Origin: Thalassobium sp.
Lineage (GTDB): Bacteria; Pseudomonadota; Gammaproteobacteria; Pseudomonadales; Oceanobacteraceae
Direction: 5' to 3'
Length of the DNA stretch: 64,000 bases
Assembly: GCA_002733205.1 (NCBI GenBank)
Contig: NVUW01000003.1
Coordinates: forward strand, 62,001-126,000
Shown here: in pieces, positions 7,157 through 24,722 of the stretch
How the letters are laid out: the number at the start of each line of letters is the position of its first letter
Numbering within the stretch: position 1 is the first letter of the stretch
Notes under the pieces: generated by a model
Told to the model about the DNA's origin: nothing
What the model saw: only the letters and a program-made list of their open reading frames with translations
Database searches by the model: none
Translations under genes and position numbers: made by a program

Positions 7157-7264
7157 AATTACCCTCCCGAGGCTGACAGATATGCTCAGCCATCCTTGCT
7201 ATTCCTGATCAATAACAACAAAATCACACCCGGCCACTCCGGCCGGATACTGTGAGTTTCAGGC

Positions 7265-8278
7265 ATGTCGAGTCACTGGATACCCCGCCCTTTTATTGAT
7301 GCCCCTCTGCGCGGTGCTGCCGGGCTGGGACTGAATCCACACCATCTGTGGGCTGCCGCCGGGCTTGATCCAGCCATTCTGAATAACCCGGACGGGCAAA
7401 TTAATGCCAACGATTATGCCAGCCTGATGGCGGTACTCTGGGCGCACAGTGATGACGAATTAATGGGACTGGCACCGGTGCGCAGCCATTCCGGCACCTT
7501 TGCTATGATGTGCAAAGCCATCATCAGTTGTTCGTCGCTGGAACACGCCCTGCACCGGGCCCGGCGCTTTTACGCCTTGTTTGATGGGGCTCCTAATATC
7601 CGTGTAATTCATGGCCCGCAACTGTCGCGCATTCAGATAGAACACGACATGAGCTGCGATCCGGACCATTTTCTCAGCGAATCACTGCTGGCTATCTGGC
7701 ATCGCCTGAGCAGCTGGTTGGTGGGCCAGGGCATACCATTGCTGTCGGTGGGTTGCTGCTACCCACCACCCGCGCATGCTGTGCTGTATCAGAATTTATT
7801 CGCCACGCCGGTTAAATTTAATGAAGACAGCACCTATCTGCTGATCCCCAGCCGCGTTCTTACCCTGCCTGTCAGCCAAACGGCGGCCTCTCTGCGTGCC
7901 TTCCTGAATCACTCCCCGGCCGATTTTCTCGCCCGGCCGAACCCGCACGAAAGCATGACCGGTAAGTTACGCCAGCTGTTCCGCCGTTATGATATCGCCT
8001 GCCTGCCGGATCTGGCGCACAGCGCCACTCAGCTGGGAGTTTCCGGTGCTACACTGAGAAGACGTTTATTCGATGAACAGACATCGTTTCAGAAGCTGAA
8101 AGATGAGTGCCGGCTGGAAGAAGCCAGCCTGCGACTGGCACAGCAGGATACCAGCATCCGTGAGATTGCCGAGTACCTGGGATATACCGAAACCAGCACA
8201 TTCCACCGCGCTTTCAAAAAATGGATGGGACTGACACCGGGTGATTACCGCAGCCAACAACAGGGCATCCGCCGCTGA
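7265..8278 (+). CDS. AraC-family transcriptional regulator
   Basis: 337 residues. The N-terminal two thirds resemble the arabinose-binding-type ligand domain found in the Pseudomonas OruR/ArgR-like AraC group. The C-terminal 100 residues hold the two helix-turn-helix motifs, including LAHSATQLGVSGATLRRRL and the signature IREIAEYLGYTETSTFHRAF. The ligand is unknown. Its 3' end overlaps the start region of the downstream membrane hybrid kinase by 38 bp, which suggests a single transcript and perhaps a joint regulatory role. It could regulate either its own operon or a distant locus. Confidence 0.92.
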   Translation: MSSHWIPRPFIDAPLRGAAGLGLNPHHLWAAAGLDPAILNNPDGQINANDYASLMAVLWAHSDDELMGLAPVRSHSGTFAMMCKAIISCSSLEHALHRARRFYALFDGAPNIRVIHGPQLSRIQIEHDMSCDPDHFLSESLLAIWHRLSSWLVGQGIPLLSVGCCYPPPAHAVLYQNLFATPVKFNEDSTYLLIPSRVLTLPVSQTAASLRAFLNHSPADFLARPNPHESMTGKLRQLFRRYDIACLPDLAHSATQLGVSGATLRRRLFDEQTSFQKLKDECRLEEASLRLAQQDTSIREIAEYLGYTETSTFHRAFKKWMGLTPGDYRSQQQGIRR

Positions 8279-11015
8279 TTCCGGTATTGTTCCGGCAGCA
8301 GCCCGCGAGCGGCTGATCCGGGCTTTACTCTTACTGCTGTGTTTATTGCTCACTCCCACAGCGTCTTCGGCAGAAACGGATCGCTGGACGTTAACCCCTC
8401 AGGATTCCGGCCGGACACTCGGCAGCGAATTACAATACTGGCGCGAAACCAGCAATCATCCGCTGGCATTGCAAGAGTTGCTGGCTCTTCAGCCAAACTG
8501 GCAGCCACACCCTGATACGATACCCAATTTTGGTTTATCCGCCGACGCCTACTGGTTTCATGTGCAAATCCACCTGCCTGAAGCCAGCGACCAGTGGCGA
8601 TTAAGTATTGAATTTCCACTGCTGGATCTGGTTGATCTGTATATTCAATTTGATCAACGAACCCTACAGCAAGAGCAATTTGGCGATGCCTTGCCGTTTA
8701 GCAGCCGGCCGATACGTCACCGCAATTTTCATATTCCTTTGCATCTGAAATACGCCGGTCATTACGATATTTATATTCGTGCGCAAAGTCAGGGATCGAT
8801 GCAGGTTCCTGTTGCCTTCTGGCTCCGGGATGAGCAGGAGGCAGAAAACACCGATAACTATATATGGGCGGGACTGTATATCGGCTTTATTGCAGCCATC
8901 ATCGTCTTCAATCTTTTTATTGCGATCACCACCCGCGAAAAATACATCGTTTATTTTGTCTGCTTTATGCTGGCTTATCTGATGTTTTATGTATCGTTAA
9001 GCGGGTTTGGTTTTGAGTATTTATGGCCTGACGGTTTATGGCTGCAAGAGCGTTTAACCATTCTTTGTGTATCCGCAGCGTGCATTTTTTCGGCGTTGTT
9101 TGCGCAGCGTTTTCTGCGCCTGAAACAACATCACCCGCGTCTGCACAGAATCAACCAGATAGACTTTTACCTGCCATTACTGACGCTGACAGCCAGCTTT
9201 TTTATTGACTATCAGCTGGCCGTAAAAGTAACCATGACCAGTACCATTTTTATTGGTTTTCTCAGCCTGGTGATCGGTATCAGCGTCGCGCTCCAGCGGA
9301 CGCTATCCGGCTTATTTTATGCCGCAGGCTGGCTGACTTTATTGCTTGGCGTGATTATTCACAGCATGAGTAAGGAAGGGTTTTTACCCATCACCCCCTG
9401 GATCGAGTACTCATCACACATTGGCTCAATACTTTTAGTCTGCACTCATAGCATGGCCATTGCGCTGCGTTTTTATGAAGAGCGCCAGCAACATAAATTA
9501 ACGTTGGAACAAATGACCGAAGCACAGCGCGAAACTCTGCGCTCACGTTACCGCATGCAGGAAGCAGAACTGCAACGTAAGCAGACAGAGGCAGAAAATC
9601 AGGCAAAGTCGGCGTTTCTGGCCATGATGAGCCATGAAATCCGCACGCCACTGAATGGCGTGTTGGGCATGGTGCAATTATTAGGGCAAACCCCTCTTGA
9701 TCTGCAGCAGCAGCGTTATCTGGAAACGATTAATACCTCGGGTGAATCCCTGCTGACCATCCTGAACGATATTCTGGATTTATCGAAAATGAATTCCGGC
9801 AAACTGCAGCTGGAAATGCAGGACGTTGCCTTACATGAACTGGTCAGCGATTGCCTGACACTTTACACCCGGCAGGCACAAGAAAAAGGGCTGACATTGC
9901 TGGCTTATTTGCATCTGCCGTTGTATCAGACCATTAACACCGACCCCACACGCCTGCGACAGATCATCAACAACCTGCTCAGTAATGCCGTTAAATTTAC
10001 CGATAACGGCAGTATTACTCTGGACCTGCATTTTTCCGCTGAAACAATGCGGCTCTGTATTAAAGATACCGGCATCGGTATCAACGAGGAGTATCAGTCA
10101 CGGTTATTTGAGCATTTCAGTCAGGCCTATATATCCACTTCGCGTCATTATGGTGGTACAGGGCTTGGGCTGAGCATCTGCAAACAATTAACCACTCTGC
10201 TGGGGGGAGACATCAGCGTCCGCAGCCGTACAGGTGAAGGCAGCGCGTTTATGCTTACCCTGCCCGGCTGCCAGCCTTCCAATCCGCTTAATCTGGAAAC
10301 CATTACCACAGGCAGCGTTCATATTCAGTTGAGCAACCCGGAGGAGCGTGAGCTGGCCACTCGGTTTATGCGCGAGCTTGGCTTTCAGCCAACCGAGCAA
10401 AAAACGGCCGATTTAGTGTTCAGCGATCAGCCCTGCAGCCATCTGCACAATCCGCAGGAACAACATATTATTTATCTGTGCGATAAAAATATGCCGGGTC
10501 TTGAACCCTGGCGTCAGCTTGTCCGGCCACTGAAAACATCCAGCATTGTGCGCCGCCTGAATGGCCAGGGAGCCCTGTACGGTAACAGCCACCATGCGCC
10601 GTCTTTATTATCAGGCGACTACCGCGTCTGGGTTGCTGAAGATAACCCGGTAAATCAAAAAGTGATTGCCGGCATGTTGCGTCACCTCGACCTGCAATAC
10701 GAACTGTTCAATGATGGTCAAAGCATCACTGAAGCCTGGCAAGCAATGTCTGAGACGCAGCGCCCGGATCTTATTTTAATGGATTGTGAAATGCCGCTAA
10801 TGGATGGCTTTACGGCCACTCTGTTACTTCGTGAAAGTGAACAGTTATCTGCTTCAGGCAAACGGGTTCCTGTTATTGCCATCACCGCCCACGCACTACC
10901 GGAATACCGCGAAAAGGCCATGAACAATGGCTTTGATGATTTCCTCAGCAAACCCATCCGCCAGCAACAGCTGCGGCAGTTATGCCAGCGCTGGCTGCAG
11001 ACACCACCATCCTGA
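8241..11015 (+). CDS. 7TMR-DISM hybrid sensor histidine kinase
   Basis: 924-residue inner-membrane protein. A hydrophobic N-terminal segment (about 26-43, signal-like) is followed by a periplasmic 7TMR-DISM extracellular domain (about 45-200), seven transmembrane helices (about 205-415), a coiled coil, a HisKA domain with His465 in MMSHEIRTPLNG, an HATPase domain (NLLSNAVKF, DTGIGI, GTGLGLSI) and a C-terminal receiver with Asp848 in LMDCEMPLMDG. DISM ectodomains often bind carbohydrates or small ligands. The proposed start is GTG, inside the AraC gene. No ATG precedes the hydrophobic segment and I see no strong Shine-Dalgarno, so the exact start is uncertain. There is no Hpt domain or output regulator beside it. 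Confidence 0.93.
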   Translation: MITAANNRASAADSGIVPAAARERLIRALLLLLCLLLTPTASSAETDRWTLTPQDSGRTLGSELQYWRETSNHPLALQELLALQPNWQPHPDTIPNFGLSADAYWFHVQIHLPEASDQWRLSIEFPLLDLVDLYIQFDQRTLQQEQFGDALPFSSRPIRHRNFHIPLHLKYAGHYDIYIRAQSQGSMQVPVAFWLRDEQEAENTDNYIWAGLYIGFIAAIIVFNLFIAITTREKYIVYFVCFMLAYLMFYVSLSGFGFEYLWPDGLWLQERLTILCVSAACIFSALFAQRFLRLKQHHPRLHRINQIDFYLPLLTLTASFFIDYQLAVKVTMTSTIFIGFLSLVIGISVALQRTLSGLFYAAGWLTLLLGVIIHSMSKEGFLPITPWIEYSSHIGSILLVCTHSMAIALRFYEERQQHKLTLEQMTEAQRETLRSRYRMQEAELQRKQTEAENQAKSAFLAMMSHEIRTPLNGVLGMVQLLGQTPLDLQQQRYLETINTSGESLLTILNDILDLSKMNSGKLQLEMQDVALHELVSDCLTLYTRQAQEKGLTLLAYLHLPLYQTINTDPTRLRQIINNLLSNAVKFTDNGSITLDLHFSAETMRLCIKDTGIGINEEYQSRLFEHFSQAYISTSRHYGGTGLGLSICKQLTTLLGGDISVRSRTGEGSAFMLTLPGCQPSNPLNLETITTGSVHIQLSNPEERELATRFMRELGFQPTEQKTADLVFSDQPCSHLHNPQEQHIIYLCDKNMPGLEPWRQLVRPLKTSSIVRRLNGQGALYGNSHHAPSLLSGDYRVWVAEDNPVNQKVIAGMLRHLDLQYELFNDGQSITEAWQAMSETQRPDLILMDCEMPLMDGFTATLLLRESEQLSASGKRVPVIAITAHALPEYREKAMNNGFDDFLSKPIRQQQLRQLCQRWLQTPPS

Positions 11016-11113: not shown

Positions 11114-12772
11114 ATGAACTGGTGGCAACAGGGAGTGTTTTATCAGATTTATCCGCGCAGCTTTCAGGACAGCAACGCTGACGGCATTGGCGATCTGCGC
11201 GGTCTGATTCAGCGCCTCGATTATCTGAACGATGGCACCCCGGATTCTCTCGGCATCGACGCCATCTGGTTGTCGCCATTTTTTCCCTCACCGATGCACG
11301 ATTTTGGCTACGACATCAGCGATTACTGCGCCATCGATCCTGTATTTGGCAGCATGGAAACATTTGACGAATTACTGCAGCAGGCGCACCAGCGCAATAT
11401 CCGTATTATTCTTGATCTGGTCGTCAACCACACATCGGATCAACACCCCTGGTTTCAGCAAAGCTGCACGCCGGGGTCGGATAAAGCCGACTGGTATATC
11501 TGGCATCAGGGCGAACAGCCTCCCAATAACTGGCTCGGCTGCTTTGGTGGTCGTGGCTGGACGTTTAATCCGCAGCGTAACGCCTGGTACTACCACTCTT
11601 TTTTGCCGCAACAACCGGATCTTAACTGGCGCAATCCGGCGGTTAAACAAGCCGTACGCGAAATTATGGAATTCTGGCTGAATAAAGGAGTGGATGGTTT
11701 CCGTCTGGATGTGGTGAATCTGTATTACAAAGATGCCCGGTTGCGTAATAACCCAACCGACTGGTTCAGACTGGCGCGGCCTTACGATCGTCAGCGCCAT
11801 ATATTCGACCGTGATCAGCCGGAAATGCACAGCCTGCTGCATGACATGCGACGCTGGGTGGATACCTTTCCGCAACGCATGATGGTGGGGGAAATTATGC
11901 TCGCCGAAGCCGGCAACAGTGATTTACCGGCCAGTTATTATGGTCAGAATGACGAGCTGCATCTGGCCTTTAATTTTGAATTTCTGCGCGCACCGTTTAA
12001 AGCGGCCGCTTTCCACGCCATTATTAAAAAATGGGTGGATGTATTAGGCGATGACAACTGGCCCAATTACACCTTAAGCAACCATGACTTCCGCCGCCAC
12101 GCCAGCCGCTACCGCGACGGCAAGCACACACTGGCGCGTCTTAAAGTACTGGCAACACTATTACTGACCTTACGCGGCACACCGTTTTTATATTATGGCG
12201 AAGAAACCGGCATGCCTGAGCAAGGCGTTAAACGCCGTGACCTTAAAGATCCGGTGGGCATCCGCTACTGGCCGCTGCACCCCGGACGCGATGGCTGTCG
12301 CCGGCCGATGATGTGGGATGCTCCGGCGAACACGTTTACTCAGGGCCGCAGCTGGCTGCCGGATGAGCCCCTCCCTGCGCACAGTGTTGCGCATCAACAT
12401 CACGACCCGGACAGTCTGCTGAGCTGGTATAAAAAGCTGATCTGGCTGCGGAAAAAAATGCCCGCGCTCAACCAGGGCAATCTGCGTTTAGTGCAGGCAC
12501 CGGACAATGTTCTGGCCTACGAACGCAGCGCCATTAATGCCAGCGCCGGGGAACGGTTATTAATTCTGCTGAATTTTTCCAGACAGCCGCAATTAACCAG
12601 TCTGCATCCGCAGGCACTGGCCAGCTGTCTGCTGAATAGCCTGCATCAAGACGCAGATACTCAGGACCCGCATAGCGCACTGGTCTTTCAGCGCGGACAA
12701 CTGCAACTGCAGCCACTGCAGGCTCTGGTGCTGCAATTACAGGCCGATTATCCGCTGAAAGTGTATGTCTGA
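11114..12772 (+). CDS. GH13 alpha-glucosidase (GH13_23-like)
   Basis: 552-residue (alpha/beta)8 glycoside hydrolase of family GH13. The conserved regions are visible: DLVVNHTSDQHPWF (100-114), GFRLDVVNLYYKD with nucleophile Asp199, MVGEIM with acid/base Glu260, and LSNHDFRRH with transition-state Asp325. The GFRLDVVNLYYKD pattern resembles the Halomonas HaG / Xanthomonas alpha-glucosidases that cleave and transglucosylate short alpha-glucosides. There is no signal peptide, so it is cytoplasmic. CAGGAG lies 5 nt before the ATG. The gene is immediately convergent with pheA and close to the glucosylglycerate genes, so a role in alpha-glucoside (sucrose, maltose or glucosylglycerate-related) turnover is plausible but inferred. 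Confidence 0.88.
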   Translation: MNWWQQGVFYQIYPRSFQDSNADGIGDLRGLIQRLDYLNDGTPDSLGIDAIWLSPFFPSPMHDFGYDISDYCAIDPVFGSMETFDELLQQAHQRNIRIILDLVVNHTSDQHPWFQQSCTPGSDKADWYIWHQGEQPPNNWLGCFGGRGWTFNPQRNAWYYHSFLPQQPDLNWRNPAVKQAVREIMEFWLNKGVDGFRLDVVNLYYKDARLRNNPTDWFRLARPYDRQRHIFDRDQPEMHSLLHDMRRWVDTFPQRMMVGEIMLAEAGNSDLPASYYGQNDELHLAFNFEFLRAPFKAAAFHAIIKKWVDVLGDDNWPNYTLSNHDFRRHASRYRDGKHTLARLKVLATLLLTLRGTPFLYYGEETGMPEQGVKRRDLKDPVGIRYWPLHPGRDGCRRPMMWDAPANTFTQGRSWLPDEPLPAHSVAHQHHDPDSLLSWYKKLIWLRKKMPALNQGNLRLVQAPDNVLAYERSAINASAGERLLILLNFSRQPQLTSLHPQALASCLLNSLHQDADTQDPHSALVFQRGQLQLQPLQALVLQLQADYPLKVYV

Positions 12773-13618: not shown

Positions 13619-14063
13619 GGTTCTCTCCTTTCAAGGGGTTATGAATACACCGATGTCACGGCCTTAGCCGTTGAAAAACCGTGGATTATCGCACGGCCCT
13701 GTTATTACAGCAGTGATTATTGCACCAGCATGATGCACAGAAAAAATACCCGCGATAAGCGCACCAAATTGAAGCATTCATCATCACTGTCTCTGTAGAG
13801 TCTGGCACATTGTATCGCGGCTTATCGTGTCGCCGCACAGCCACAGATGCGATAAAAACCAGTACCAGCCACGGCTGCCGGCTGCGACAGGCCGGGGAAA
13901 ATAAGCAGAAGCCCGCAACTGGCACAATGTCTGCTCTGTCTCATTGATGTATCTGCTCTACCATTAGTTAAGGCACCTATGAATCGTTCTGCACAGCTTC
14001 GCGTGAATGAATCAGAGATGCTTTAAAGCGTCATCTTTTCCGGGACAGATAACAGGTATCGAT
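13619..14063. other. Gene-free divergent region between pheA and glycerate kinase
   Basis: 445 bp without a supportable gene. It must hold the promoters of leftward pheA and the rightward glycerate kinase operon. Near the right end AGATG-ctttaaagcgt-CATCT (14015-14036) could form a small hairpin. I see no confident -35/-10 pair, no riboswitch and no obvious regulator box. Confidence 0.4.
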
Positions 14064-15059
14064 ATGAATCTTCAACCCACACTCTGGCCACACTCACTCA
14101 GCAGCGATCCACAGCTGCTGGAACAATTACGCAGCGCTGGCGAAACAGAGCTGCAGGACTTTCCTGCCGCCTGGCTGAGCCAGTGGCCGGATGTCTGGGC
14201 ACCGCTTGCCGCCTGGCTGGCCGCTGAAAAAGCAACAATGACCAGCCGTGTGCCAATGATCGGTATTCATGGCGGCCAGGGTTCGGGGAAATCCACCCTC
14301 TGCCAGGCACTGGCACGGGTTTACCGTAAGGTGCTGGATTGGAACACCGTGGTATTGTCAATTGATGATCTCTACCTGACGCACTCCGAACGCAGCCAGC
14401 TGGCCCTGAATATTCACCCGCTGCTGAGCACTCGCGGCGTACCCGGCACCCATGACGTGGCTCTGGGCATACTACTGACCCGCCAACTGCGCCAACTGAC
14501 GGAAGGCGATAAGCTGCTGATTCCTGCCTTTGACAAAATTCAGGATGATCGCCTGCCCGATAACTACTGGCACAAAGTAACAGGCCCGGTCGATCTGATC
14601 CTGTTTGAAGGCTGGTGTGTGGGCTGCCGACCGGTCAGCGACGATGACCTGCAAACGCCGATCAACAGCCTGGAAAGCAGCGACGATGCGGATGGCCAAT
14701 GGCGGCGCTGGGTGAATCAGCAACTGGCCGGCAGCTATGCCGACTGGTTCACTCAGATCGACCGCCTGCTGATGCTGAAAGTGCCCGATATGAAAGCCGT
14801 GCACCAATGGCGGCGCGAGCAGGAAGACAACAACCGCAAACAATCGGAAGCCTTATCACAGAACAAAATCAGCCTGAACAAAACCACCGACCGCAGCCTC
14901 AGCGAGGCCGGGCTGATACGCTTTATTCAGCACTATCAGCGCCTGACCGAAAATGCACTGCGCGAGCTGCCTGAGCATGCCGATCTGGTGCTGGAACTCG
15001 ACACGCAGCATCAGGTTGCCGCCATTCACAGCAAAACACAGGAGGTGGATAAACCATGA
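14064..15059 (+). CDS. D-glycerate 3-kinase-like P-loop kinase
   Basis: 331 residues. A Walker A motif GGQGSGKST (70-78) sits after a helical N-terminal part, followed by a DDLYLT segment and LFEGWCVGC (a Walker B-like block) characteristic of the plant/bacterial GLYK-type D-glycerate 3-kinase family. The enzyme would convert D-glycerate to 3-phosphoglycerate. I chose the ATG at 14064 over an in-frame ATG 57 nt upstream, because AACAGGT lies ahead of it and the upstream extension is not conserved-looking. The gene is the first of a tightly coupled operon with the glucosylglycerate phosphatase and synthase, so it likely supplies or recycles the glycerate moiety. Confidence in the kinase family is high, in the substrate moderate. 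Confidence 0.85.
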   Translation: MNLQPTLWPHSLSSDPQLLEQLRSAGETELQDFPAAWLSQWPDVWAPLAAWLAAEKATMTSRVPMIGIHGGQGSGKSTLCQALARVYRKVLDWNTVVLSIDDLYLTHSERSQLALNIHPLLSTRGVPGTHDVALGILLTRQLRQLTEGDKLLIPAFDKIQDDRLPDNYWHKVTGPVDLILFEGWCVGCRPVSDDDLQTPINSLESSDDADGQWRRWVNQQLAGSYADWFTQIDRLLMLKVPDMKAVHQWRREQEDNNRKQSEALSQNKISLNKTTDRSLSEAGLIRFIQHYQRLTENALRELPEHADLVLELDTQHQVAAIHSKTQEVDKP

Positions 15060-15889
15060 ACACAACCACACATCCACACAATACTCCGCCGGAGCTGCCC
15101 CTGGTCGTGGTGACCGATCTCGACGGCAGCCTGCTTGATCATCACAGCTACAGCGCGCAAGCCGCAGAAAAAGCCCTGAAAAAACTCCGTACCCTGAATA
15201 TTCCCTGCGTGTTTAACAGCAGTAAAACCTTCGATGAAATGCTGCTTCTGAGAGAAACGCTGGATAACCGCGATCCCTTTGTCTGCGAAAACGGCGGCGC
15301 GATTTTTATTCCGAAAAGCAACGGTAATGGCTACAACAGCGAAATTCTGCACAGTAGCTATCTGGCCATACTGAAAGTGCTGCACAGTCTGCGTCAGCAG
15401 GGTTTTCAGTTCCGCGGCTTTAACGATATGACCGCCACCGAAGTAGCGGCATTAACCGGCTTATCGGTAGAGGATGCGCATCTGGCAAAACAACGCAGCG
15501 CGTCCGAACCGCTGGTCTGGACCGGTACGGAAAAGCAATTGGAGGAGTTTCGCCAGGCATTGACCATGCACAATCTGCGTCTGCTCAGTGGCGGCCGTTT
15601 TCATCATGTAATGGGCCCCAACGATAAGGCCCACGGCCTGGAATTCTGCCGTCATCATTACGAAGCGTTATGGCAACAGCCGGTCAAAGTGATCGCCCTC
15701 GGCGATGGCGAAAACGACCGCGCCATGCTCAGCGCCGCCGACTACGCCATTGTGATTCCCGGCATAAAAAACACCCTCAAACTGCAGCACCCACAGCTGC
15801 GGATTGCCAGCAAAGCCGGACCGGCGGGCTGGAATGAAACCTTACTTTCCCTGTTAGATGACCTGTTCAAGGAGGCTCATAGTGGCTGA
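15056..15889 (+). CDS. gpgP: Glucosyl-3-phosphoglycerate phosphatase (MPGP-type HAD)
   Basis: 277 residues of the HAD superfamily, Cof/MPGP subgroup. Motif I is TDLDGSLLD (nucleophile Asp21, general acid Asp23); motif III/IV is GDGENDRAML near residue 220. Members dephosphorylate mannosyl- or glucosyl-3-phosphoglycerate to give the free glycoside. Because the next gene is a glucosyl- rather than mannosyl-phosphoglycerate synthase, the substrate should be glucosyl-3-phosphoglycerate. The start overlaps the kinase stop (ATGA) and the stop overlaps the next gene by 8 nt, a strong sign of coupled translation. The product is the compatible solute glucosylglycerate in the cytoplasm. Confidence 0.9.
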   Translation: MNTTTHPHNTPPELPLVVVTDLDGSLLDHHSYSAQAAEKALKKLRTLNIPCVFNSSKTFDEMLLLRETLDNRDPFVCENGGAIFIPKSNGNGYNSEILHSSYLAILKVLHSLRQQGFQFRGFNDMTATEVAALTGLSVEDAHLAKQRSASEPLVWTGTEKQLEEFRQALTMHNLRLLSGGRFHHVMGPNDKAHGLEFCRHHYEALWQQPVKVIALGDGENDRAMLSAADYAIVIPGIKNTLKLQHPQLRIASKAGPAGWNETLLSLLDDLFKEAHSG

Positions 15890-17096
15890 TTTTTATCAGA
15901 ACGGCATTATTACCACTCTGCATAATCTGGTTGACCGTCCGCTGGATGAATTAGAAAAAGAACTCATCAGTTTTTCACGTATCAGGCCCATGTCGCTGGT
16001 GCTGCCCTCTCTCTACTCCGAACTCAGCGGCCCGGCACTGGACAACATCATTAACGATGTCGCCAAGGTTCCTTACCTGAACGAAATTGTGATTGGCCTG
16101 GATCGCGCCGACGAAAAAGAATACCGCCATGCACGGGAATTTTTTTCCCGCCTGCCGCAACATCACCGCATTTTATGGAACGATGGCCCGCGCCTGCGCA
16201 AAATTGACGAACTGCTGCAGAATGAAGGGCTGGCACCAAAGGAAATGGGGAAAGGCCGTAATGTCTGGTACTGCTATGGCTATGTGCTGGCGTCGGGCCG
16301 TGCCGAATCGGTTGCATTGCACGATTGCGATATCGTTACCTACGACCGCAGCATGCTGGCACGCCTGATTTACCCGGTGGCCAATCCGGCATTTAACTAC
16401 GAATTTGCCAAAGGCTATTATGCCCGAGTGGCAACACAAAAACTGAATGGCCGCGTCAGCCGTTTATTGGTAACGCCGTTAATCCGTGCACTGAAAAAAG
16501 TGTATGGTTCACTTGATTACCTGGAGTATCTCGACAGCTTCCGTTATCCGCTGTCGGGTGAATTTTCGATGCGTACCGATGTGCTGAACGATATCCGTAT
16601 TCCATCCGACTGGGGCTTGGAAATCGGCGTGCTGTCAGAAATGAAGCGTAATTATTCAACCAACCGTATCTGTCAGGTCGATATTGCCGATGTGTATGAC
16701 CATAAGCATCAGCCACTGTCAGAAGAAGATGCCAGCCGTGGCTTATCGAAAATGAGCACCGACATCTGCAAAGCTATTTTCCGCAAGCTGGCCACTCAGG
16801 GAGAAATCTTCACCACCGAAACCTTCCGCTCGATTAAGGCGACGTATTTCCGCATTGCGCTGGATTTTGTCGAAACCTATTACAACGATGCACGCATGAA
16901 TGGTTTAACGCTCGATCGTCATGCCGAAGAAAAAGCCGTGGAATTATTTGCCGAAAATATTATGTCTGCCGGTGAACATTTCCTCGCTAATCCGATGGAA
17001 ACACCGTTTATTCCGAGCTGGAACCGGGTGATCTCAGCCGTGCCGGATATTCTTGATCGTATTTATGAAGCGGTCGAAGAAGACAACCATCACTGA
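15882..17096 (+). CDS. gpgS: Glucosyl-3-phosphoglycerate synthase (GT81)
   Basis: 404 residues starting at a GTG that has a strong AAGGAGG Shine-Dalgarno 7 nt upstream, inside the end of the phosphatase gene. GpgS transfers glucose from an NDP-glucose donor to 3-phosphoglycerate. The GT-A fold metal-binding motif is HDCDIV (Asp148, Asp150), and the C-terminal region (SDWGLEIGVLSEMKR and the following helices) has the look of this family. It is the committed step of glucosylglycerate synthesis, used by halotolerant bacteria in salt stress and nitrogen limitation. An 8-nt overlap with the phosphatase gene couples the two. Downstream the gene meets a convergent small gene. Confidence 0.93.
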   Translation: MADFYQNGIITTLHNLVDRPLDELEKELISFSRIRPMSLVLPSLYSELSGPALDNIINDVAKVPYLNEIVIGLDRADEKEYRHAREFFSRLPQHHRILWNDGPRLRKIDELLQNEGLAPKEMGKGRNVWYCYGYVLASGRAESVALHDCDIVTYDRSMLARLIYPVANPAFNYEFAKGYYARVATQKLNGRVSRLLVTPLIRALKKVYGSLDYLEYLDSFRYPLSGEFSMRTDVLNDIRIPSDWGLEIGVLSEMKRNYSTNRICQVDIADVYDHKHQPLSEEDASRGLSKMSTDICKAIFRKLATQGEIFTTETFRSIKATYFRIALDFVETYYNDARMNGLTLDRHAEEKAVELFAENIMSAGEHFLANPMETPFIPSWNRVISAVPDILDRIYEAVEEDNHH

Positions 17097-17121
17097 CGGA
17101 AAATCAGTAATGGTTTGTCGT

Positions 17122-17171
17122 CTGCCAATGCATAGACCAGATACTCAGAATTAGTGAAAATGCATTGGCAG
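17122..17171. repeat. Inverted repeat between convergent gpgS and small gene
   Basis: CTGCCAATGCAT (17122-17133) and ATGCATTGGCAG (17160-17171) are a perfect 12-bp inverted repeat with a 26-bp spacer. The right arm lies inside the last codons of the leftward small gene. It may act as a bidirectional transcription barrier, but there is no U-run. Confidence 0.4.
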
Positions 17172-17438
17172 GCGGCCAGCCTGCGGACGCTCGGCGTTGT
17201 TGATCATTTCATCGTAAGGCAGCTGCTGTACCATAAAGCCCTCACGTGCCCCCAGGCTCGCCAGCTTACCGGAGCATTCTGACAAGCCGCGGAAACGCAT
17301 CGGCATTCCGCCCTCCATCAGCAGACTGCGCTGCCCAAGATGTTCAATCTGCACCAGATAGAGATCCCCTTCATTGGCCAGAATGTTCACCTCAGCCTGG
17401 CCTGAGCGCAGCACTTTCTTGAATTCTGTGGTGGTCAT
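17151..17438 (-). CDS. Small uncharacterised protein, DUF6482-like
   Basis: 95 residues, starting MTTTEFKKVLRSG after a strong AGGAGAAGGA element. No signal peptide or membrane segment. The pattern VNILANEGDLYLVQIEHLGQRSLLM resembles the DUF6482 family of small gammaproteobacterial proteins, whose function is unknown. It is a single leftward gene between gpgS and a divergent TetR gene. The family assignment is from memory of the pattern and not tested. An upstream in-frame codon would add 15 residues, but the Shine-Dalgarno favours the shorter form. Confidence 0.7.
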   Translation of the reverse strand: MTTTEFKKVLRSGQAEVNILANEGDLYLVQIEHLGQRSLLMEGGMPMRFRGLSECSGKLASLGAREGFMVQQLPYDEMINNAERPQAGRLPMHFH

Positions 17439-17649
17439 ATTCCTTCTCCTGTTACGAACACAAAGCACTAAAAAACTATACAACAGTCATACAGCAATAT
17501 AACCCCCCTGTTTCTGCTATCTAAGAACCATTGGCTATCAGAGGCGGCGAAGACCCTGCATTTGACAATATGCCCCCGGCCCTCAAAAATGACGTCCGTT
17601 TCCGTTTTACGCCCCGGACATTAAACACCGCGCGGCCAGCAGGATAGTT

Positions 17650-18261
17650 ATGGCCAATATCGCTTCACCCGAGAAAATTGCCCGCCGTCGTCAGGACATC
17701 CTCGATGCCGCCATCGATATTTTTGCCGACAAAGGCTTTCACGCCAGCGGTATTGCCGATATCGCCACCCGCCTGGGCATTGGCCATGGCACGGTCTATC
17801 GCTACTACAAAAACAAACGGGATATTTTTAACGAAATTCTCAACCTGCTGCTCAGCGAGATGGCGACCGTCGTACAGCAGGAGCCGCCCAACACCAACTC
17901 GCTGACGGAATATCAGCAACAGCTGGAACGCATTGCTGACCGCCTGATTGCCATTTTTCGTGAACGGCCACAACTGGCACGCATCGCTTTTTACGAATCT
18001 TATGGCGTGGATGCGGAGATCAGTGATGCGGTAAACCGCATTCAGGAATTATTCGCCGAATTTACCGCCTATTATCTGCTTAACGGTATCAACAAGAATT
18101 TTTTGCGCCGCGAAATGGATACGGCGATTGCCGCCCGTTTGGTGACCGCGATGCTGATGGAAACCGTAAAGCATGTGGCACTGAACGACTTTAACGATGC
18201 TCAGATAGCCCCCTGGCGTCAGGAGATTATCCGTCTGATGATCGGCGGCCTGAGCCGCTGA
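17650..18261 (+). CDS. TetR-family transcriptional regulator
   Basis: 203 residues. The N-terminal TetR helix-turn-helix is clear: RRRQDILDAAIDIFADKGFHASGIADIATRLGIGHGTVYRYYKNKRDIF, whose key parts are ADKGF, the recognition helix GTVYRYY and the K-R-D of the helix end. The C-terminal ligand domain is unassigned. It lies between a divergent small gene and the converging phosphorylase/Entner-Doudoroff operon. Acyl-CoA or other lipid-sensing TetR proteins have this size, so the ligand is open. A possible target is the neighbouring sugar block, but nothing in the sequence proves it. Confidence 0.9.
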   Translation: MANIASPEKIARRRQDILDAAIDIFADKGFHASGIADIATRLGIGHGTVYRYYKNKRDIFNEILNLLLSEMATVVQQEPPNTNSLTEYQQQLERIADRLIAIFRERPQLARIAFYESYGVDAEISDAVNRIQELFAEFTAYYLLNGINKNFLRREMDTAIAARLVTAMLMETVKHVALNDFNDAQIAPWRQEIIRLMIGGLSR

Positions 18262-18265
18262 CAAG

Positions 18266-18304
18266 GCCAGCAGCGCGTGATTAAACGCGAGGAGCCTGGC
18301 TGGC
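18266..18304. terminator. Hairpin between convergent TetR and phosphorylase genes
   Basis: GCCAGC (18266-18271) pairs with GCTGGC (18299-18304), enclosing CGCGT/ACGCG. A compact stem lies just after the TetR stop and before the phosphorylase stop. There is no clear U-run on either strand, so terminator function is only suggested. Confidence 0.4.
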
Positions 18305-18309
18305 AACGG

Positions 18310-20046
18310 TTACGACTGGGTCAGCCAGACCGTCTGATACGGCGCCAGGGTTAAGACCTCTGCTAACGCACTATCTGCCTCGTCATGGCTCAGAAGATTG
18401 GACATTCCACCCGGTAAAAAACCCAGGCTGGCCAGTGGCAACTGCAGAATACGCTCAGTCACATTAGACAACGCGTAGAGTGTTTGGCTGTTATCCACAC
18501 TGGTGCGTTTAACAATAAATAAATCGGAATTAATGCGCACAATATCCTGCCGTGCATCCGGATGAAAGGCGCTCTGCTGACGACGGATTTTAATCATGCG
18601 GCGTAACTCACTGAACACTTCCGCCTGCGGCGTTACCGGATTACTCAGCAGACATTCCAGCTCGTGACGGTTCCAGATTTTACGGTTAATCGAACGCGTG
18701 CGGCCGGTTTGTTCAACATGTTCAAGATCATTGGGTGTCGCCACCAGGCTGTGAATATACAGTGCAGGAATGCCCTGAATAGCGAGCATGATCGCCTGCG
18801 AACACAGAAAGCGCTGCACCTGAAAATGATCACTGCCGCGTCGCGTACCCATGCAGGCATCAAACAAACTGATGTTAATTTCATACGGACTCTGACTGCC
18901 GTCCGCATTGGCTTTCATGCTGACAAAGCCACCAAAGCGGTGCATGGAATCAATCAGATCCTGCACTTCGCGCTCTGGCAAAATACCTTCCACCGGGCGC
19001 ACACCGATACCATCATGTGAAGCGGTAAAATTCAGGTAGCTGCAACCGGCCGGTAATGGCGGAATTTTATCAGCCCAATCCGTCAGAAAGCTGGCATTAC
19101 CACGATTAAGAGCATGCAATACCAACGGCGGCAGACCAAACTGATACACCATATGGGCTTCATCGGACTGACCGAAATAACTCAGATTTTCAGCCACCGG
19201 CACGTTGGTTTCGGTAATCAACACCACCTCCGGAGCCGCATAATCGAGTACATCGCGCAACAGTTTGACCACTTCATGGGTCTGCGGCAGATGCACGCAG
19301 CGGGTGCCGATTTTTTTCCACAGAAAGGCAATGGCATCCAGGCGGATAAAGCGTGCTCCGCGCTCCACATACAGCAGCAATATCTGAGTGAATTCGAGCA
19401 GGACACGGGGATTGGCAAAATTCAGATCGATCTGGTCTTCACTGAAGGTGGCCCACACATGACGCACCCCACGGTGAGTATGCACCGGTGTTAACAGCGG
19501 CGTATTGCGTGGCCGGGTAACCGCCGATACATCGGTTTCCGGGTCAACTTCAATAAAATATTCACTGTAGGGTTCACGATTACCAATGTAATCGACAAAC
19601 CATAAGTTTTCCCGCGAGCAATGGTTAATCACCAGATCCATCATCAGATCAAAATCGTGGGCGATCGCGCTGATATCTTCCCAGTTGCCCCAGTCCGGGT
19701 TTACCTGACGGTAATCAATCACCGAAAAACCATCATCCGAACTGTACGGAAAAAACGGCAAAATATGCACATTATTGATGGTATCGAGCAGATGACCGCG
19801 TAAAAAATCCCCCAGCGTTTGCAGCGGAATCTCACCTTCCTGCTGAATGCTGTGGCCGTAGGTGATCAGGATGACGTCCTGTTCTGACCAGCGCTCCGCT
19901 CTGGCTGTTTTTTCTACCCGGATATTGCTGTCAGAAAATTGCTGGCACAAACGCATAATATGCTGCGCCAGCTCGCCGTGATCATTCCGCTCAGAATAAA
20001 TGTTTTCCAGGCGTTGTTTAAAACCGCTCAGTATTGGCTCCGTCAT
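18310..20046 (-). CDS. Sucrose-phosphorylase-family enzyme, likely glucosylglycerate phosphorylase
   Basis: 578-residue GH13_18 enzyme. Family motifs are HILPFFPYSSDDGFSVIDY (94-112), LVINHCSREN, RLDAIAFLWK with nucleophile Asp237, LITETN with acid/base Glu279 and ASHDGIGVRP with Asp345. The subfamily includes sucrose phosphorylase, sucrose-6-phosphate phosphorylase and glucosylglycerate phosphorylase (characterised in Meiothermus and in Escherichia coli YcjM). Because genes for making glucosylglycerate lie 1.2 kb away and no sucrose transporter or hydrolase is present, I favour glucosylglycerate phosphorylase, giving glucose 1-phosphate and glycerate. It ends the leftward zwf-pgl-edd-eda operon. 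The distinction from sucrose phosphorylase needs the acceptor-site residues and an assay. Confidence 0.8.
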   Translation of the reverse strand: MTEPILSGFKQRLENIYSERNDHGELAQHIMRLCQQFSDSNIRVEKTARAERWSEQDVILITYGHSIQQEGEIPLQTLGDFLRGHLLDTINNVHILPFFPYSSDDGFSVIDYRQVNPDWGNWEDISAIAHDFDLMMDLVINHCSRENLWFVDYIGNREPYSEYFIEVDPETDVSAVTRPRNTPLLTPVHTHRGVRHVWATFSEDQIDLNFANPRVLLEFTQILLLYVERGARFIRLDAIAFLWKKIGTRCVHLPQTHEVVKLLRDVLDYAAPEVVLITETNVPVAENLSYFGQSDEAHMVYQFGLPPLVLHALNRGNASFLTDWADKIPPLPAGCSYLNFTASHDGIGVRPVEGILPEREVQDLIDSMHRFGGFVSMKANADGSQSPYEINISLFDACMGTRRGSDHFQVQRFLCSQAIMLAIQGIPALYIHSLVATPNDLEHVEQTGRTRSINRKIWNRHELECLLSNPVTPQAEVFSELRRMIKIRRQQSAFHPDARQDIVRINSDLFIVKRTSVDNSQTLYALSNVTERILQLPLASLGFLPGGMSNLLSHDEADSALAEVLTLAPYQTVWLTQS

Positions 20047-20056
20047 AGGCTCTCAG

Positions 20057-20665
20057 TTATCCGGCAATGGCCATGGTCGTTATTGCTTGCCAGTTTCGTG
20101 CCGAGATTGCTTCTGCCGGCGTCAACCAGCTGCCGCCCACGGCAAATACATTATTCAAGGCCAGATAATCCTGATAATTTTTTTGCCCAATACCACCGGT
20201 CGGACAGAACTTCACATCCGCAAAGGGGCCCGCAAACGCCTTCAGCATATCAATGCCACCGGCGGCGGCGGCGGGGAAAAACTTCTGATATTTAAATCCG
20301 GCCGCGCGTGCCTGCAGAACTTCGCTCGGTGTCGCCACCCCTGGTAAATACGGGCCGCCCCAACGTCGTGCACATTCGAGTAACTCCGGCGAAATTCCGG
20401 GGCTGACGACAAACTCAGCGCCCCGGTTCAGTGCATCTTCCATTTGCTCTGCACTGGTCACGGTACCTACGCCGACAATGGCTCCCGGAACTTCATGTTT
20501 AATCCGGGTGATGGCATCCAGGCCGTGGCGAGTGCGCAGCGTTACTTCCAACAGGCGAACGCCTCCCTGCACCAGCGCCTGTGCCAGAGGCACGGCATCT
20601 TCCGGATCATCTATCACGATAACGGGCACCAGAGGTTTGGCCCGGTCTAACCATAAATCCCACAT
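20057..20665 (-). CDS. eda: KDPG aldolase Eda
   Basis: 202 residues, the class I aldolase of the Entner-Doudoroff pathway, splitting 2-keto-3-deoxy-6-phosphogluconate to pyruvate and glyceraldehyde 3-phosphate. Family marks: EVTLRT near residue 40, GVGTVTSAEQ, the Schiff-base lysine in KFFPAAAAGG and the phosphate-binding FCPTGGI. AAGGAG lies 8 nt ahead of the ATG. It is between edd (48-bp gap) and the phosphorylase gene (10-bp gap) in one transcription unit. It may also cleave 2-keto-4-hydroxyglutarate. Confidence 0.97.
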   Translation of the reverse strand: MWDLWLDRAKPLVPVIVIDDPEDAVPLAQALVQGGVRLLEVTLRTRHGLDAITRIKHEVPGAIVGVGTVTSAEQMEDALNRGAEFVVSPGISPELLECARRWGGPYLPGVATPSEVLQARAAGFKYQKFFPAAAAGGIDMLKAFAGPFADVKFCPTGGIGQKNYQDYLALNNVFAVGGSWLTPAEAISARNWQAITTMAIAG

Positions 20666-20713
20666 TACGATTCTCCTTAAACGTACCCTGAATGCTCAAA
20701 CGAGTGTTCTTCT

Positions 20714-22525
20714 TCAATCCCAGCCGACAGACAACGCGCCCTGATCAGCCGGAGTTACTAATTTGCGGAAACCGGCGAATAACTCACGGCCGCAGCCAAC
20801 GTCGGATGGAACGGCAGGCACGGTACGCGGACGCTGAACAAAATCGTCCGTCAGGACCTGCAGTTCACCATGGTGTCCGTCGAGACGGATAACATCGCCA
20901 TCCTGCACCGCATCCAGCCAGCCAGCGGCACCGGCTTCCGGACAGACATGTATCGCCGCCGGTACTTTGCCCGATGCACCGGACAGACGGCCGTCGGTGA
21001 CCAGAGCAACACGATGACCCGCATCCTGCAGGTTGGTCAGCGCCGGGGTCAGCTGGTGTAGCTCCGGCATGCCGTTGGCTTTAGGCCCCTGATATTTCAG
21101 CACCACCACCACATCACGATTCAGTTCGCCTTGCTGATACGCCACTAAAACGGCTTCCTGGGTTGTAAAGACCCTGGCGGGTGCTTCTATTTGCCAGCGG
21201 TCGTCCGGTACCGCCGAAACTTTCATCACGGCACGGCCCAGATTGCCCTGCAGCAGCTTCATTCCGCCTTCGCGCATAAACGGCGCATGAGCCGGTGCCA
21301 ATACCGATAAATCGAGGCTCTCGGCCACGGCCGGACGCCAGCCCAGAGTGCGTTCAGAACTCAGATACGGTTCTTTGAAATATGGCTCCAGGCCGTTGCC
21401 CATAATGGTTTTAACATCGGTATGCAGCAATCCGGCGGAAGCCAGCTCGCGCATTAAGTAGGCCATGCCACCACTACGCTGAAACGCGTTGATATCGGCT
21501 TTGCCATTGGGATAAACCCGCGCCAGTAAAGGAACAACGTCTGACAAATCGGCCATATCCTGCCAGTCGAGCACAAGGCCGGCCATGCGCCCGATCGCCA
21601 GTAAATGAATGCTGTGATTCGTAGAACCACCGGTCGCCAGCAACCCCACCATCGCGTTCACCAGCGTGCGTTCGTCGACCATCTGACCCAGCGGGGTGAA
21701 GTCTGGAGCCAAGGCGGTCAGGTCGGTGACACGCCGCGCCGCAGCCTGGGTTAAAGGTGCCCGTAATGGATCATCCGGGTTAATAAATGAGGATCCTGGT
21801 AATTGCAGGCCCATGATTTCCATCAGCATCTGATTGGAATTGGCGGTGCCATAGAACGTGCAGGTACCGGCGCTGTGATATGAGGCCATTTCGCTGCTCA
21901 GCAGTTCATCACGGCCCACCTCTCCGGCGGCATAAGCCTGACGGACTTTGGCCTTATCGCTGTTACTGATACCACTGGGCATAGGACCCGCCGGTACAAA
22001 AATCGCCGGCAGATGGCCAAAACGCAGCGCGGCCATTAATAAGCCCGGCACAATTTTGTCGCAGATCCCCAACAGCAGCATGCCATCGAATACCTGATGC
22101 GACATCGCCACCGCCGTACTCAGCGCAATCACATCGCGGCTGAATAACGACAATTCCATCCCGCTTTGCCCCTGAGTCACACCATCGCACATCGCCGGCA
22201 CGCCGCCCGCCATTTGCCCGACATGGCCATGTGCCGCCAGCGCTTGCTTTAACTGCTCAGGATACGCACGGTAAGGCGCATGAGCCGAGAGTACATCGTT
22301 GTACGCACTGATAATGGCAATGTTGGCGGCACGGTGATTCTGGCGCAGGATCAGTTTTTCATTATCCGACGAGGCAGCATAATCGTGGGCCAGATTGGTA
22401 CAGCTCAGCTGATCGCGGACCGGCCCTTGCGCTACGGCCTGCTCTATTTGAGCCAGATAAGCAGCGCGTGTGGCTTGGCTGCGCTGGCGGATACGTGCGG
22501 TCACATCAAGCAGTATGGGGTGCAT
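20714..22525 (-). CDS. edd: Phosphogluconate dehydratase Edd
   Basis: 603 residues, the ilvD/Edd dehydratase fold, converting 6-phosphogluconate to KDPG. Conserved cysteines for the [4Fe-4S] cluster and the segments [38 protein letters not shown] and [17 protein letters not shown] identify Edd. Its start overlaps the end of pgl by 20 nt (CGGAG precedes the ATG), so translation is coupled. It is in the middle of zwf-pgl-edd-eda-phosphorylase, a full oxidative Entner-Doudoroff route from glucose 6-phosphate. Confidence 0.97.
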
Positions 22526-23255
22526 CAGATACTCCGGTTAAACCATCTCGGCGATAAACACTCAGCGGCACCTGCGTTTGAAACAAGATCTTACGCACCG
22601 GCATCGCCGCCGTATTGCCTGCTTCAGCCGTATCACAGGCAAGGCTGAACACACGGTTTTTATCATCGCCATCAAACAGCAGAAATAATTGTTGGCATGT
22701 TGCCAGCAGGCTCCAGCTGAGCGTCATGCGCGCCGGGCTGACATTGCGATCGGTTACCGGGCAGCACCAGGCTCCGGTGTTGTCATCCAGACAGGACATC
22801 AATGCCTGACTGTGTGGAAACCAGCTGGCGGTATGACCATCACTTCCCATGCCCAACACGGCATAGTCGAGCTGGTCAATCTGTTCATGCAGGGTATTTT
22901 CACAGGCCATAAAGCCTTGCTCGGGAGTGGGGGCTTTATTTTTTAAAGGCAAAAAATACGCCTGGCGCGCGTGCCGTTGCAGCAAATGTTCGCGCACCAA
23001 TGCGGCATTACTCTGCGGATCACTTTCATCCAGCCAACGTTCATCGACCAGAGTGATCAGGACTTTCTGCCAGTCAATTGTTTGCTGCGCCAACTGCTGA
23101 AAAAAACGCACCGGTGTACTGCCACCACTGACGGCCAGACACGCCCGGCCGCGGCGCTCAATACAACGCTGCAAACGCGTCGCTAAATCTTCAGCCAGCT
23201 GCCTGGCCAATGATTCACTGCTGCTAAAGCGCAGATCCTGCATATTGCTCAGCAT
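22506..23255 (-). CDS. pgl: 6-phosphogluconolactonase
   Basis: 249-residue DevB/Pgl-type lactonase that hydrolyses 6-phosphogluconolactone to 6-phosphogluconate. The residues CLAVSGGSTPVRFFQQLA (40-57), TLVDERW and the region GSDGHTASWFPHS are the family signature. GAGGAGG lies 4 nt before the ATG. It begins 9 bp after the zwf stop and its 3' end overlaps edd, so zwf, pgl and edd are made together. Confidence 0.96.
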   Translation of the reverse strand: MLSNMQDLRFSSSESLARQLAEDLATRLQRCIERRGRACLAVSGGSTPVRFFQQLAQQTIDWQKVLITLVDERWLDESDPQSNAALVREHLLQRHARQAYFLPLKNKAPTPEQGFMACENTLHEQIDQLDYAVLGMGSDGHTASWFPHSQALMSCLDDNTGAWCCPVTDRNVSPARMTLSWSLLATCQQLFLLFDGDDKNRVFSLACDTAEAGNTAAMPVRKILFQTQVPLSVYRRDGLTGVSDAPHTA

Positions 23256-23264
23256 ATGTCCTCC

Positions 23265-24722
23265 TCAGCTGTTCTCATCCCACAGGCGGCCATCTTTCGC
23301 CAACAGCAACGTAGCCGCCGCCGGTCCCCAGGAACCGGAAGTATAGGGTTCTGGGCGCTGCTCGGAATCGTTCCAGCACTGCAGAATCGGATCAACCCAA
23401 CGCCAGGCTTCCAGTAATTCGTCGTCGCGTAAAAACAGCGTGGCATTGCCGCTTAATGCATCAAACAACAAACGCTCATAGGCTTCCGGGACCCGGGTTT
23501 GTTTCAGATTGGCCGGATTCAGACTGAGATTCATCGGCCGTACATTCATGCCCGGCCCGACCCGTTTTTCACACAGCATCAGGCGGATGCCTTCGTCCGG
23601 TTGCAGGCGGAAAATCAGTTTATTGGCCATGGTGCTTTTATGTTGCATCGGAAAAATCGAATGCGGTATCGCTTTAAAGTGCACCACAATCTCGCAGGCC
23701 CGGTCGGCCAGACGCTTGCCGGTGCGTAAATAAAAGGGAACGCCAGCCCAGCGCCAGTTATCAATTTCGACCTTCACGGCAATGAAAGTTTCGGTCGTAC
23801 TTTTCGGTTGCACACCGGGCTCGTCACGGTAACGCGGTACCGGCTTACCTTCGGAGACACCGGCATCGTACTGACCACGCACAACATTTTCGCTGACGGT
23901 ATCAGCAGTAATGGATTTCAGCGCTTTCAGAACTTTTACTTTTTCATCCCGCACCGAATCCGGCTCCAGCCTTGCCGGTGGTTCCATGGCGGTAATGCAC
24001 AACAGCTGCAGCAGATGGTTCTGAAACATATCGCGCATGGCACCGACCTGATCATAAAACCCGGCGCGCTTTTCAACGCCCAGAGATTCTGAAATCGTAA
24101 TCTGAATATGGTCGATGTATTTCTGATTCCACTGTGATTCGAACAGCGAGTTGGCAAAACGCAACACCATCAGGTTCTGCACGGTCTCTTTGCCTAAATA
24201 ATGATCAATCCGATAAATCTGCGATTCCGAAAAATATTCGGCAACGGCGTTGTTAATCGCCTGCGCAGAAGCGAAATCATGGCCGATGGGTTTTTCCAGT
24301 ACGATTTTACTTTGACTGAGAATCAGGCCGCTGTTGTGCAGTCCGCGGGCGATGTTGGTATACAGGTCGGAACCGGTCGCCAGATAAAAGATCCGGTTAA
24401 TATCCCCCGCCATCAGGCCACTGGCCAATAACTCGTATTGTGTATCATCGCTCAGATCAACCGTCAGACAATGCAGGCGCTCGCTAAAGCTTTGCCAGCT
24501 GCTCTCTTCCAGAAACTCCGCGGCCACATACTGCCTGAGCGCAGTCCGTACCCTATCGGTAAACGCCTCCGGACTTATCTCCCGCCGTGTGGTGGAGTAA
24601 ATACGTCCGGCCGGCAAACGCCCGTCACGATGCAGTAAATACAGAGCGGGCAGCAGCTTACGTTGCGCCAGATCCCCTAAACCACCGAACAAAACCAGCT
24701 CGAATGGAGCATCAATATGCAT
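23265..24722 (-). CDS. zwf: Glucose-6-phosphate 1-dehydrogenase Zwf
   Basis: 485 residues, normal for the family. The N-terminal nucleotide-binding loop reads GGLGDLAQRKL, a slight variant of GASGDLA. The active-site motif RIDHYLGKETVQN is intact. It oxidises glucose 6-phosphate and supplies NADPH, the first step of this operon. CAGGAGGTAGCGG precedes the ATG. I looked upstream for the palindromic HexR operator that often governs zwf in gammaproteobacteria and could not see one, so its regulation is open. Confidence 0.97.
   Translation of the reverse strand: MHIDAPFELVLFGGLGDLAQRKLLPALYLLHRDGRLPAGRIYSTTRREISPEAFTDRVRTALRQYVAAEFLEESSWQSFSERLHCLTVDLSDDTQYELLASGLMAGDINRIFYLATGSDLYTNIARGLHNSGLILSQSKIVLEKPIGHDFASAQAINNAVAEYFSESQIYRIDHYLGKETVQNLMVLRFANSLFESQWNQKYIDHIQITISESLGVEKRAGFYDQVGAMRDMFQNHLLQLLCITAMEPPARLEPDSVRDEKVKVLKALKSITADTVSENVVRGQYDAGVSEGKPVPRYRDEPGVQPKSTTETFIAVKVEIDNWRWAGVPFYLRTGKRLADRACEIVVHFKAIPHSIFPMQHKSTMANKLIFRLQPDEGIRLMLCEKRVGPGMNVRPMNLSLNPANLKQTRVPEAYERLLFDALSGNATLFLRDDELLEAWRWVDPILQCWNDSEQRPEPYTSGSWGPAAATLLLAKDGRLWDENS

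Follow-up and report, generated by a model that had tools for sequence, protein, structure and literature searches.

The window analysed here, a 64,000-nucleotide stretch of contig NVUW01000003.1 from Thalassobium sp., appears to encode a complete cycle for the synthesis, breakdown and salvage of the osmolyte glucosylglycerate (GG), to which a carbon exit is attached in the form of an Entner-Doudoroff (ED) operon. This reading, which builds enzyme activities, co-transcription and flux direction on observed gene content, order, conservation and diagnostic residues, is given a probability of about 0.77. The cycle and the placement of its kinase are ordinary and already of a known kind. The coupling of the ED operon to ggaP, the gene for the predicted glucosylglycerate phosphorylase (GGaP), is rarely seen outside one bacterial family and is a nearly family-specific twist on a known osmolyte cycle.

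In the proposed cycle, GpgS would join glucose from a nucleotide sugar to 3-phosphoglycerate, and a phosphatase of the MPGP family would then free GG. With phosphate, GgaP would split GG into glucose 1-phosphate and D-glycerate, the latter being returned to 3-phosphoglycerate by a putative GLYK-type kinase. A phosphoglucomutase encoded elsewhere would convert glucose 1-phosphate to glucose 6-phosphate. From there Zwf, Pgl, Edd and Eda, whose genes are probably co-transcribed with ggaP, would lead on to pyruvate, glyceraldehyde 3-phosphate and reducing power. The ED pathway is proposed to burn glucose 1-phosphate from the cell's own osmolyte. Since synthesis and breakdown lie in two convergent operons, they could be switched separately; such control would be needed, as nucleoside triphosphates are wasted when the two run at once.

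All of the genes listed in the original prediction were found at their positions when the open reading frames (ORFs) were checked, and both of the arrangements it described, a kinase/phosphatase/GpgS operon and, 1.2 kb away, a leftward zwf-pgl-edd-eda-phosphorylase run, hold. Families were assigned by NCBIfam, Pfam and Protein Data Bank (PDB) searches:

14064..15059, + strand: homologue of GLYK-type (class III) D-glycerate 3-kinases (kin), from phmmer against the PDB and shared blocks
15056..15889, + strand: HAD-IIB phosphatase of the MPGP/GpgP family (gpgP), TIGR01486; PDB 1xvi, 3ztw
15858..17096, + strand: predicted glucosyl-3-phosphoglycerate synthase (gpgS), NF040724 GpgS_Meth; PDB GpgS entries
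17151..17483, - strand: DUF6482 protein between the operons and probably outside the system, PF20090
17650..18261, + strand: TetR regulator between the operons and not conserved with them, PF00440
18310..20046, - strand: predicted glucosylglycerate phosphorylase (ggaP, GH13_18), 578 aa, last gene of the ED operon; TETN, loop-A Glu
20057..20665, - strand: eda, 2-keto-3-deoxy-6-phosphogluconate (KDPG) aldolase, TIGR01182, 251 bits
20714..22525, - strand: edd, phosphogluconate dehydratase, TIGR01196, 915 bits
22506..23255, - strand: pgl, 6-phosphogluconolactonase, TIGR01198, 180 bits
23265..24722, - strand: zwf, glucose-6-phosphate dehydrogenase, first gene of the operon, TIGR00871, 583 bits

The four ED genes are contiguous, and each scores above its family cut-off. 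Spacing is tight throughout the leftward run (zwf-pgl 9, pgl-edd -20, edd-eda 48 and eda-ggaP 10 bp). In the rightward operon, kin and gpgP overlap by 4 bp and gpgP and gpgS by 32 bp; the kinase start was placed at ATG 14064 in the original prediction, and a second in-frame ATG lies at 14007. The operons converge on the 1.2 kb between gpgS and the phosphorylase stop, which holds the DUF6482 (-) and TetR (+) genes. The source genome (4.15 Mb, 22 contigs, 87% complete) has Thalassolituus as its nearest named relatives, and the ggaP of T. alkanivorans is 91% identical to that of the window.

Conservation was followed in 28 genomes (the window's own, 17 of the same family and 10 of the order), with ggaP counted when the best match exceeded 500 bits, and in a class sample of 232 genomes, 33 of which, besides the window's own, encode a close GGaP (E no higher than 1e-120) and were compared over stretches of about 8-10 kb on each side of ggaP. 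At least seven of these class loci end at contig ends (L111, L112, L114, L117, L119, L132 and L133), so counts over the 33 are lower bounds, and some are apparently the same assemblies as loci in the named set (e.g., L105 and L022). Two matches, gpgS in L119 (25% identity) and the kinase in G022 (33 bits), were dropped from the counts.

The suggestion that a phosphorylase inside an ED operon is unusual was borne out. Of the 17 family genomes that carry ggaP, 12 have it adjacent to edd (the exceptions being G010, G011, G012, G014 and G017), while zwf, pgl, edd and eda were found near ggaP in none of the 33 class loci, within their flanks and with several cut by contig ends. The arrangement is beyond chance: in each of the 18 loci measured, from 15 assemblies, eda and ggaP have stayed adjacent, with 5-49 bp between them. 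Among the 80 named loci, eda directly precedes ggaP in 14, all within one 20-row clade of the tree. The L003-L020 group is the Thalassolituus-Oceanobacter clade; outside it, L025 is the sole locus of 62 with ED genes within 10 kb, which by a rough estimate is roughly what chance could give. A looser arrangement is seen in G021, where zwf lies 6 kb and edd 9 kb from ggaP. The ED linkage as a wide phenomenon was rejected on these counts.

Other arrangements occur. The Oceanobacter loci L017 and L018 lack edd-eda and have ggaP 319 and 179 bp, respectively, behind zwf-pgl; in O. kriegii (G017, the genome of L017; locus L089) and in G010, edd adjoins glk elsewhere in the genome. The tree of 44 chosen rows, in which the deepest forks inside the 20-row clade lack resolution, does not settle the order in which the edd-linked and zwf-only forms arose. 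In L019, no trace of edd or eda was seen in the 3.5 kb that separates pgl from ggaP; this interval (6475-9976) holds a 465-residue ORF on the opposite strand that is permease-like by eye. L025, from a gammaproteobacterial metagenome-assembled genome, has ggaP, gpgS-gpgP-kin, eda, edd, zwf and pgl in another order within its 10 kb.

A distant eda-like match (26-30% identity) is present in nine of the 62 loci (L043, L046, L058, L064, L067, L071, L074, L078 and L082). The three that were tested, L043, L046 and L064, score over the cut-off as 2-dehydro-3-deoxy-6-phosphogalactonate aldolase and not as Eda, so the nine were not counted as ED. In these halomonad loci (the three and six more), the gene, a phosphogalactonate aldolase gene in the three tested, stands some 3-10 kb away from ggaP and hints at a further route for sugar acids in that group. 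A literature search on GGaP, GpgS, glucosylglycerate and Thalassolituus with ED found no phosphorylase described in an ED operon, and nothing joining Thalassolituus with GG, in titles and abstract openings; most subscription journals lay outside its coverage, and such a description may be in print.

Phosphofructokinase (PFK, PF00365; PfkB was not tested) is found in none of the 18 family genomes, which makes ED the likely route down, and the EIIC component of the phosphotransferase system (PTS) is likewise found in none of them. Only G010 and G017 have a full-length Glk (PF02685, 357 bits); eight further genomes give weak PF02685 matches of 20-30 bits, and the places compared (e.g., in G003, G004 and G005) are ROK genes. 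Three phosphoglucomutase family candidates lie elsewhere in the window's genome. A published table of eight strains lists six Thalassolituus-group strains as negative for D-glucose use and two Oceanobacter strains as positive, the data for strains 6-8 being taken from elsewhere (PMC9807766). Four of the eight could be matched to loci by strain. Three of the four, tabulated as glucose-negative, have the ED-ggaP link: T. alkanivorans TMPB967 (L004), T. marinus IMCC1826 (L011) and Oleibacter marinus DSM 24913 (L005, under the name T. maritimus). The fourth, O. kriegii (L017, DSM 6294), is glucose-positive and has edd with glk elsewhere. DSM 6294 is presumably the same type strain as IFO 15467. 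This comparison covers four species on one tree and carries no statistical test. Together with the absence of PFK and PTS EIIC, the phenotypes suggest an internal source for the operon's glucose phosphate, namely phosphorolysis of GG. Another report lists glucose among the substrates tested for the related strain C2-1 and predicts fructose, sucrose and glycerate use for C2-1 and IMCC1826 (PMC10073702); it may disagree with the glucose-negative picture. Thalassolituus is counted among the marine oil-degrading bacteria, and seven of eight strains from oil-degrading genera did not grow on glucose; as tested genera the accessible text names Alcanivorax and Marinobacter and not Thalassolituus (PMC6379940).

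A further, tentative step, and one that may well prove wrong, is that in Thalassolituus unable to use glucose the ED pathway is chiefly internal. Carbon from alkanes would be stored as GG by gluconeogenesis and, upon a fall in salt or a shortage of carbon, returned by phosphorolysis through zwf-pgl-edd-eda-ggaP to pyruvate and NADPH, making the osmolyte a reserve of carbon and reducing power. The proposed coupling, if true, would explain a complete ED operon in bacteria reported not to use glucose and would give GGaP a physiological role; its exact metabolic function had not yet been experimentally confirmed according to a 2020 review (PMC7178133).

The cycle might also be real and ggaP lie behind eda by historical accident, with the operon serving NADPH production and other sugars and the placement having no regulatory meaning. 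This is rather unlikely. It fits a linkage that is almost confined to one family, the retention of the ED genes without ggaP in G003, and the L017 and L018 loci, where zwf-pgl stands before ggaP without edd-eda. It fits poorly with a junction that is kept at its short spacing in 15 assemblies and down to about 73% protein identity, and with G013, in which ggaP stays behind eda although kin-gpgP-gpgS is on another contig.

Several further points weigh against the proposal of a GG cycle with an ED exit. The ED link is phylogenetically narrow, and the tree does not settle whether the linked rows form a single clade (support 61/81). G003, a 2.8 Mb genome of the same genus, is without ggaP, gpgS and the kinase and yet keeps zwf-pgl-edd-eda, so the ED pathway has other uses. 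A ROK kinase is present in 15 of the 18 family genomes (best model fructokinase, below cut-off), which makes another sugar entry into ED possible. A promoter scan of the window gave 8 sites against 9.5 expected, no signal above chance. Finally, the synthase has NF040724 as its best model, at full length (residues 11-411) with 373 bits, and does not reach the equivalog cut-off of 700.

The stronger claim that only GG feeds ED because there is no glucokinase was rejected in view of the ROK kinases. At L086 of G003 (C1:1770000-1789000), the block from ggaP to an alpha-glucosidase-like gene, described below, is not at this place, and eda directly adjoins a gene that by eye resembles the far-side flank of the block elsewhere, an apparent loss of the whole osmolyte module.

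Of the 28 genomes, 23 carry gpgS together with ggaP and the other five have neither. A split this perfect has a chance of about 1 in 98,000 by a hand calculation that ignores ancestry. With the sequence diagnostics given below, it lends good support to the predicted cycle of synthesis, phosphorolysis and salvage. In every one of the 17 family genomes that carry gpgS the kinase adjoins it, as it does in 19 of the 23 overall, and near ggaP in the class loci are found gpgS (25 of 33), the phosphatase (23), the kinase (10) and galU (2). The salvage kinase inside the synthesis operon, which had been thought unusual, is therefore nothing of the kind: it is common in relatives, and GGaP genes are frequently accompanied by genes for glycerate kinase, GpgS or GpgP (PMC7178133). 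GalU makes UDP-glucose, and galU lies within about 7 kb of ggaP in nine of the 28 genomes and about 180 kb away in the window's own. At L095 (G011), pgm-galU is divergent from zwf-kin-gpgP-gpgS-ggaP, giving candidates for all steps between glucose 6-phosphate and GG, in both directions. In G005, ggaP is at the end of one contig and kin-gpgP-gpgS at the end of another.

This co-occurrence also bears on whether the phosphorylase acts on imported GG, made by cyanobacteria or by other organisms, and so brings a nutrient into ED. In favour of such a role, E. coli ycjM is followed by ABC-transporter genes, and no gpgS is named among the 21 annotated features there. The role is improbable for the window, since ggaP and gpgS strictly co-occur in the 28 genomes and no clustered window gene was assigned to a transporter family, genes further out being unannotated.

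The assignment of the 578-residue enzyme as a predicted GGaP (EC 2.4.1.352) rests on the acceptor-site loops. Within GH13_18, the marks of GGaP are a (T/S)ETN motif and, in loop A, a conserved Glu in place of the Gln of most other clades (PMC7178133). The loop check that the original prediction had proposed found both: TETN lies within LITETNV (residues 276-282; E279, N281), and the loop-A Glu is E389 in SPYEIN. Both are identical in all 82 sequences of an alignment of the window enzyme, 80 relatives chosen for their similarity to it and E. coli YcjM, while Gln stands opposite the loop-A Glu in both PDB phosphorylase alignments printed. N281 and E389 are each numbered six higher than their counterparts in the Meiothermus silvanus GGaP, N275 and E383, whose substitution severely cuts activity (PMC7178133). 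D237 (RLDAI) and D345 (SHDG) are also kept in 82 of 82 sequences. These two are presumed to have catalytic roles.

That the enzyme is instead a sucrose phosphorylase, or has some other GH13_18 specificity, is very improbable. The best NCBIfam model is indeed that of sucrose phosphorylase, TIGR03852, but at 221 bits against a cut-off of 334, and loop A reads SPYEIN and not N(L/V)D(I/L/V)YQ. One glucosylglycerate phosphorylase has been reported to be active on sucrose (PMC11009771). TETN and the loop-A Glu make a sucrose phosphorylase unlikely, and the enzyme shares 42% identity (233/557) with E. coli YcjM, annotated and reported as a GGaP; gpgS neighbours ggaP in most class loci. G001, G004, G007, G009, G016 and G017 each encode a further GH13_18-like protein that shares 31-33% identity with the window GGaP and is perhaps a sucrose or glucosylglycerol phosphorylase.

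The kinase has no Pfam match at 1e-4. Its phmmer matches are led by 7xpc GLYK (4.2e-21), 6ckg D-glycerate 3-kinase (1.7e-17) and yeast 1odf (1e-12), with uridine-cytidine kinases trailing at 7.5e-7 at best. Kinship with plant and fungal GLYK, a P-loop and the shared SIDDxYLT, RGxxGTHD and EGW blocks, with invariant columns over 12 homologues, place it in class III. Plant-type (class III) glycerate kinases produce 3-phosphoglycerate, whereas other bacterial and animal ones produce 2-phosphoglycerate (PMC10970406). By family membership, the window kinase would convert D-glycerate to 3-phosphoglycerate and, as this is the GpgS acceptor, would close the cycle directly. The phosphatase scores 220 bits against the 164.75 cut-off of TIGR01486. 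The synthase is a GpgS-like homologue by sequence and not a proven equivalog; its PDB matches are GpgS entries, from 1.5e-5, and, at 3.6e-4, an entry under the name MPGS. GpgS is by far the better conserved of synthase and kinase: across ten family genomes (G001, G004, G005, G007, G009, G010, G013, G015, G016 and G017) it is 83-92% identical to that of the window, against 53-63% for the adjoining kinase.

Another glycoside of glycerate such as mannosylglycerate can hardly be the solute: the phosphatase family does take in mannosyl-3-phosphoglycerate phosphatases, and the sub-cut-off GpgS score and weak MPGS match leave some room for it, but the synthase matches solely GpgS models in NCBIfam at E 1e-5, and in this phosphorylase subfamily it is a glucosyl group that occupies subsite -1 (PMC7178133).

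The closest known systems are the GGaP clusters of M. silvanus, Spirochaeta thermophila and others (PMC7178133, PMC11009771), which like the window combine a GH13_18 GGaP with glycerate kinase, GpgS or GpgP. In the window, by contrast, ggaP ends a full zwf-pgl-edd-eda operon convergent to kin-gpgP-gpgS; ED genes are unmentioned in the accessible text of those papers. The E. coli YcjM has the same diagnostic residues, but ycjM adjoins ABC-transporter, dehydrogenase and kojibiose phosphorylase genes, and no synthesis or ED genes are named there. In Marinobacter, a phosphorylase for a compatible solute likewise adjoins its synthesis gene, ggpPS; there the solute is glucosylglycerol, and neither kinase nor ED coupling is mentioned in the portions available (PMC10873239). 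According to the same source, 198 of 250 Marinobacter isolates combine homologues of GpgS, GpgP and GGaP. The mycobacterial glucosylglycerate hydrolase also remobilises GG, but by hydrolysis to glucose and glycerate as opposed to the phosphorolysis predicted here (PMC11009771).

Two candidate regulators were considered and rejected. Of the relatives searched, L003 and L004 alone have a match to the TetR gene between the operons. HexR control was rejected since a HexR-like palindrome has 4 matches in the 64 kb against 6.4 expected (at most 3 mismatches), none near either operon. A terminator scan gave 25 sites against 12.5 expected. DUF6482 matches adjoin the cluster only in L003, L004, L015, L020 and L092 among the relatives searched. 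At 11114-12772 (+) of the window, adjoining pheA, lies the GH13 alpha-glucosidase-like gene (best PDB match 3wy1), which is kept near the cluster in L003, L004, L008, L014, L017, L018 and L020 and stands beside kin-gpgP-gpgS in L092; its product could act on GG or on other alpha-glucosides.

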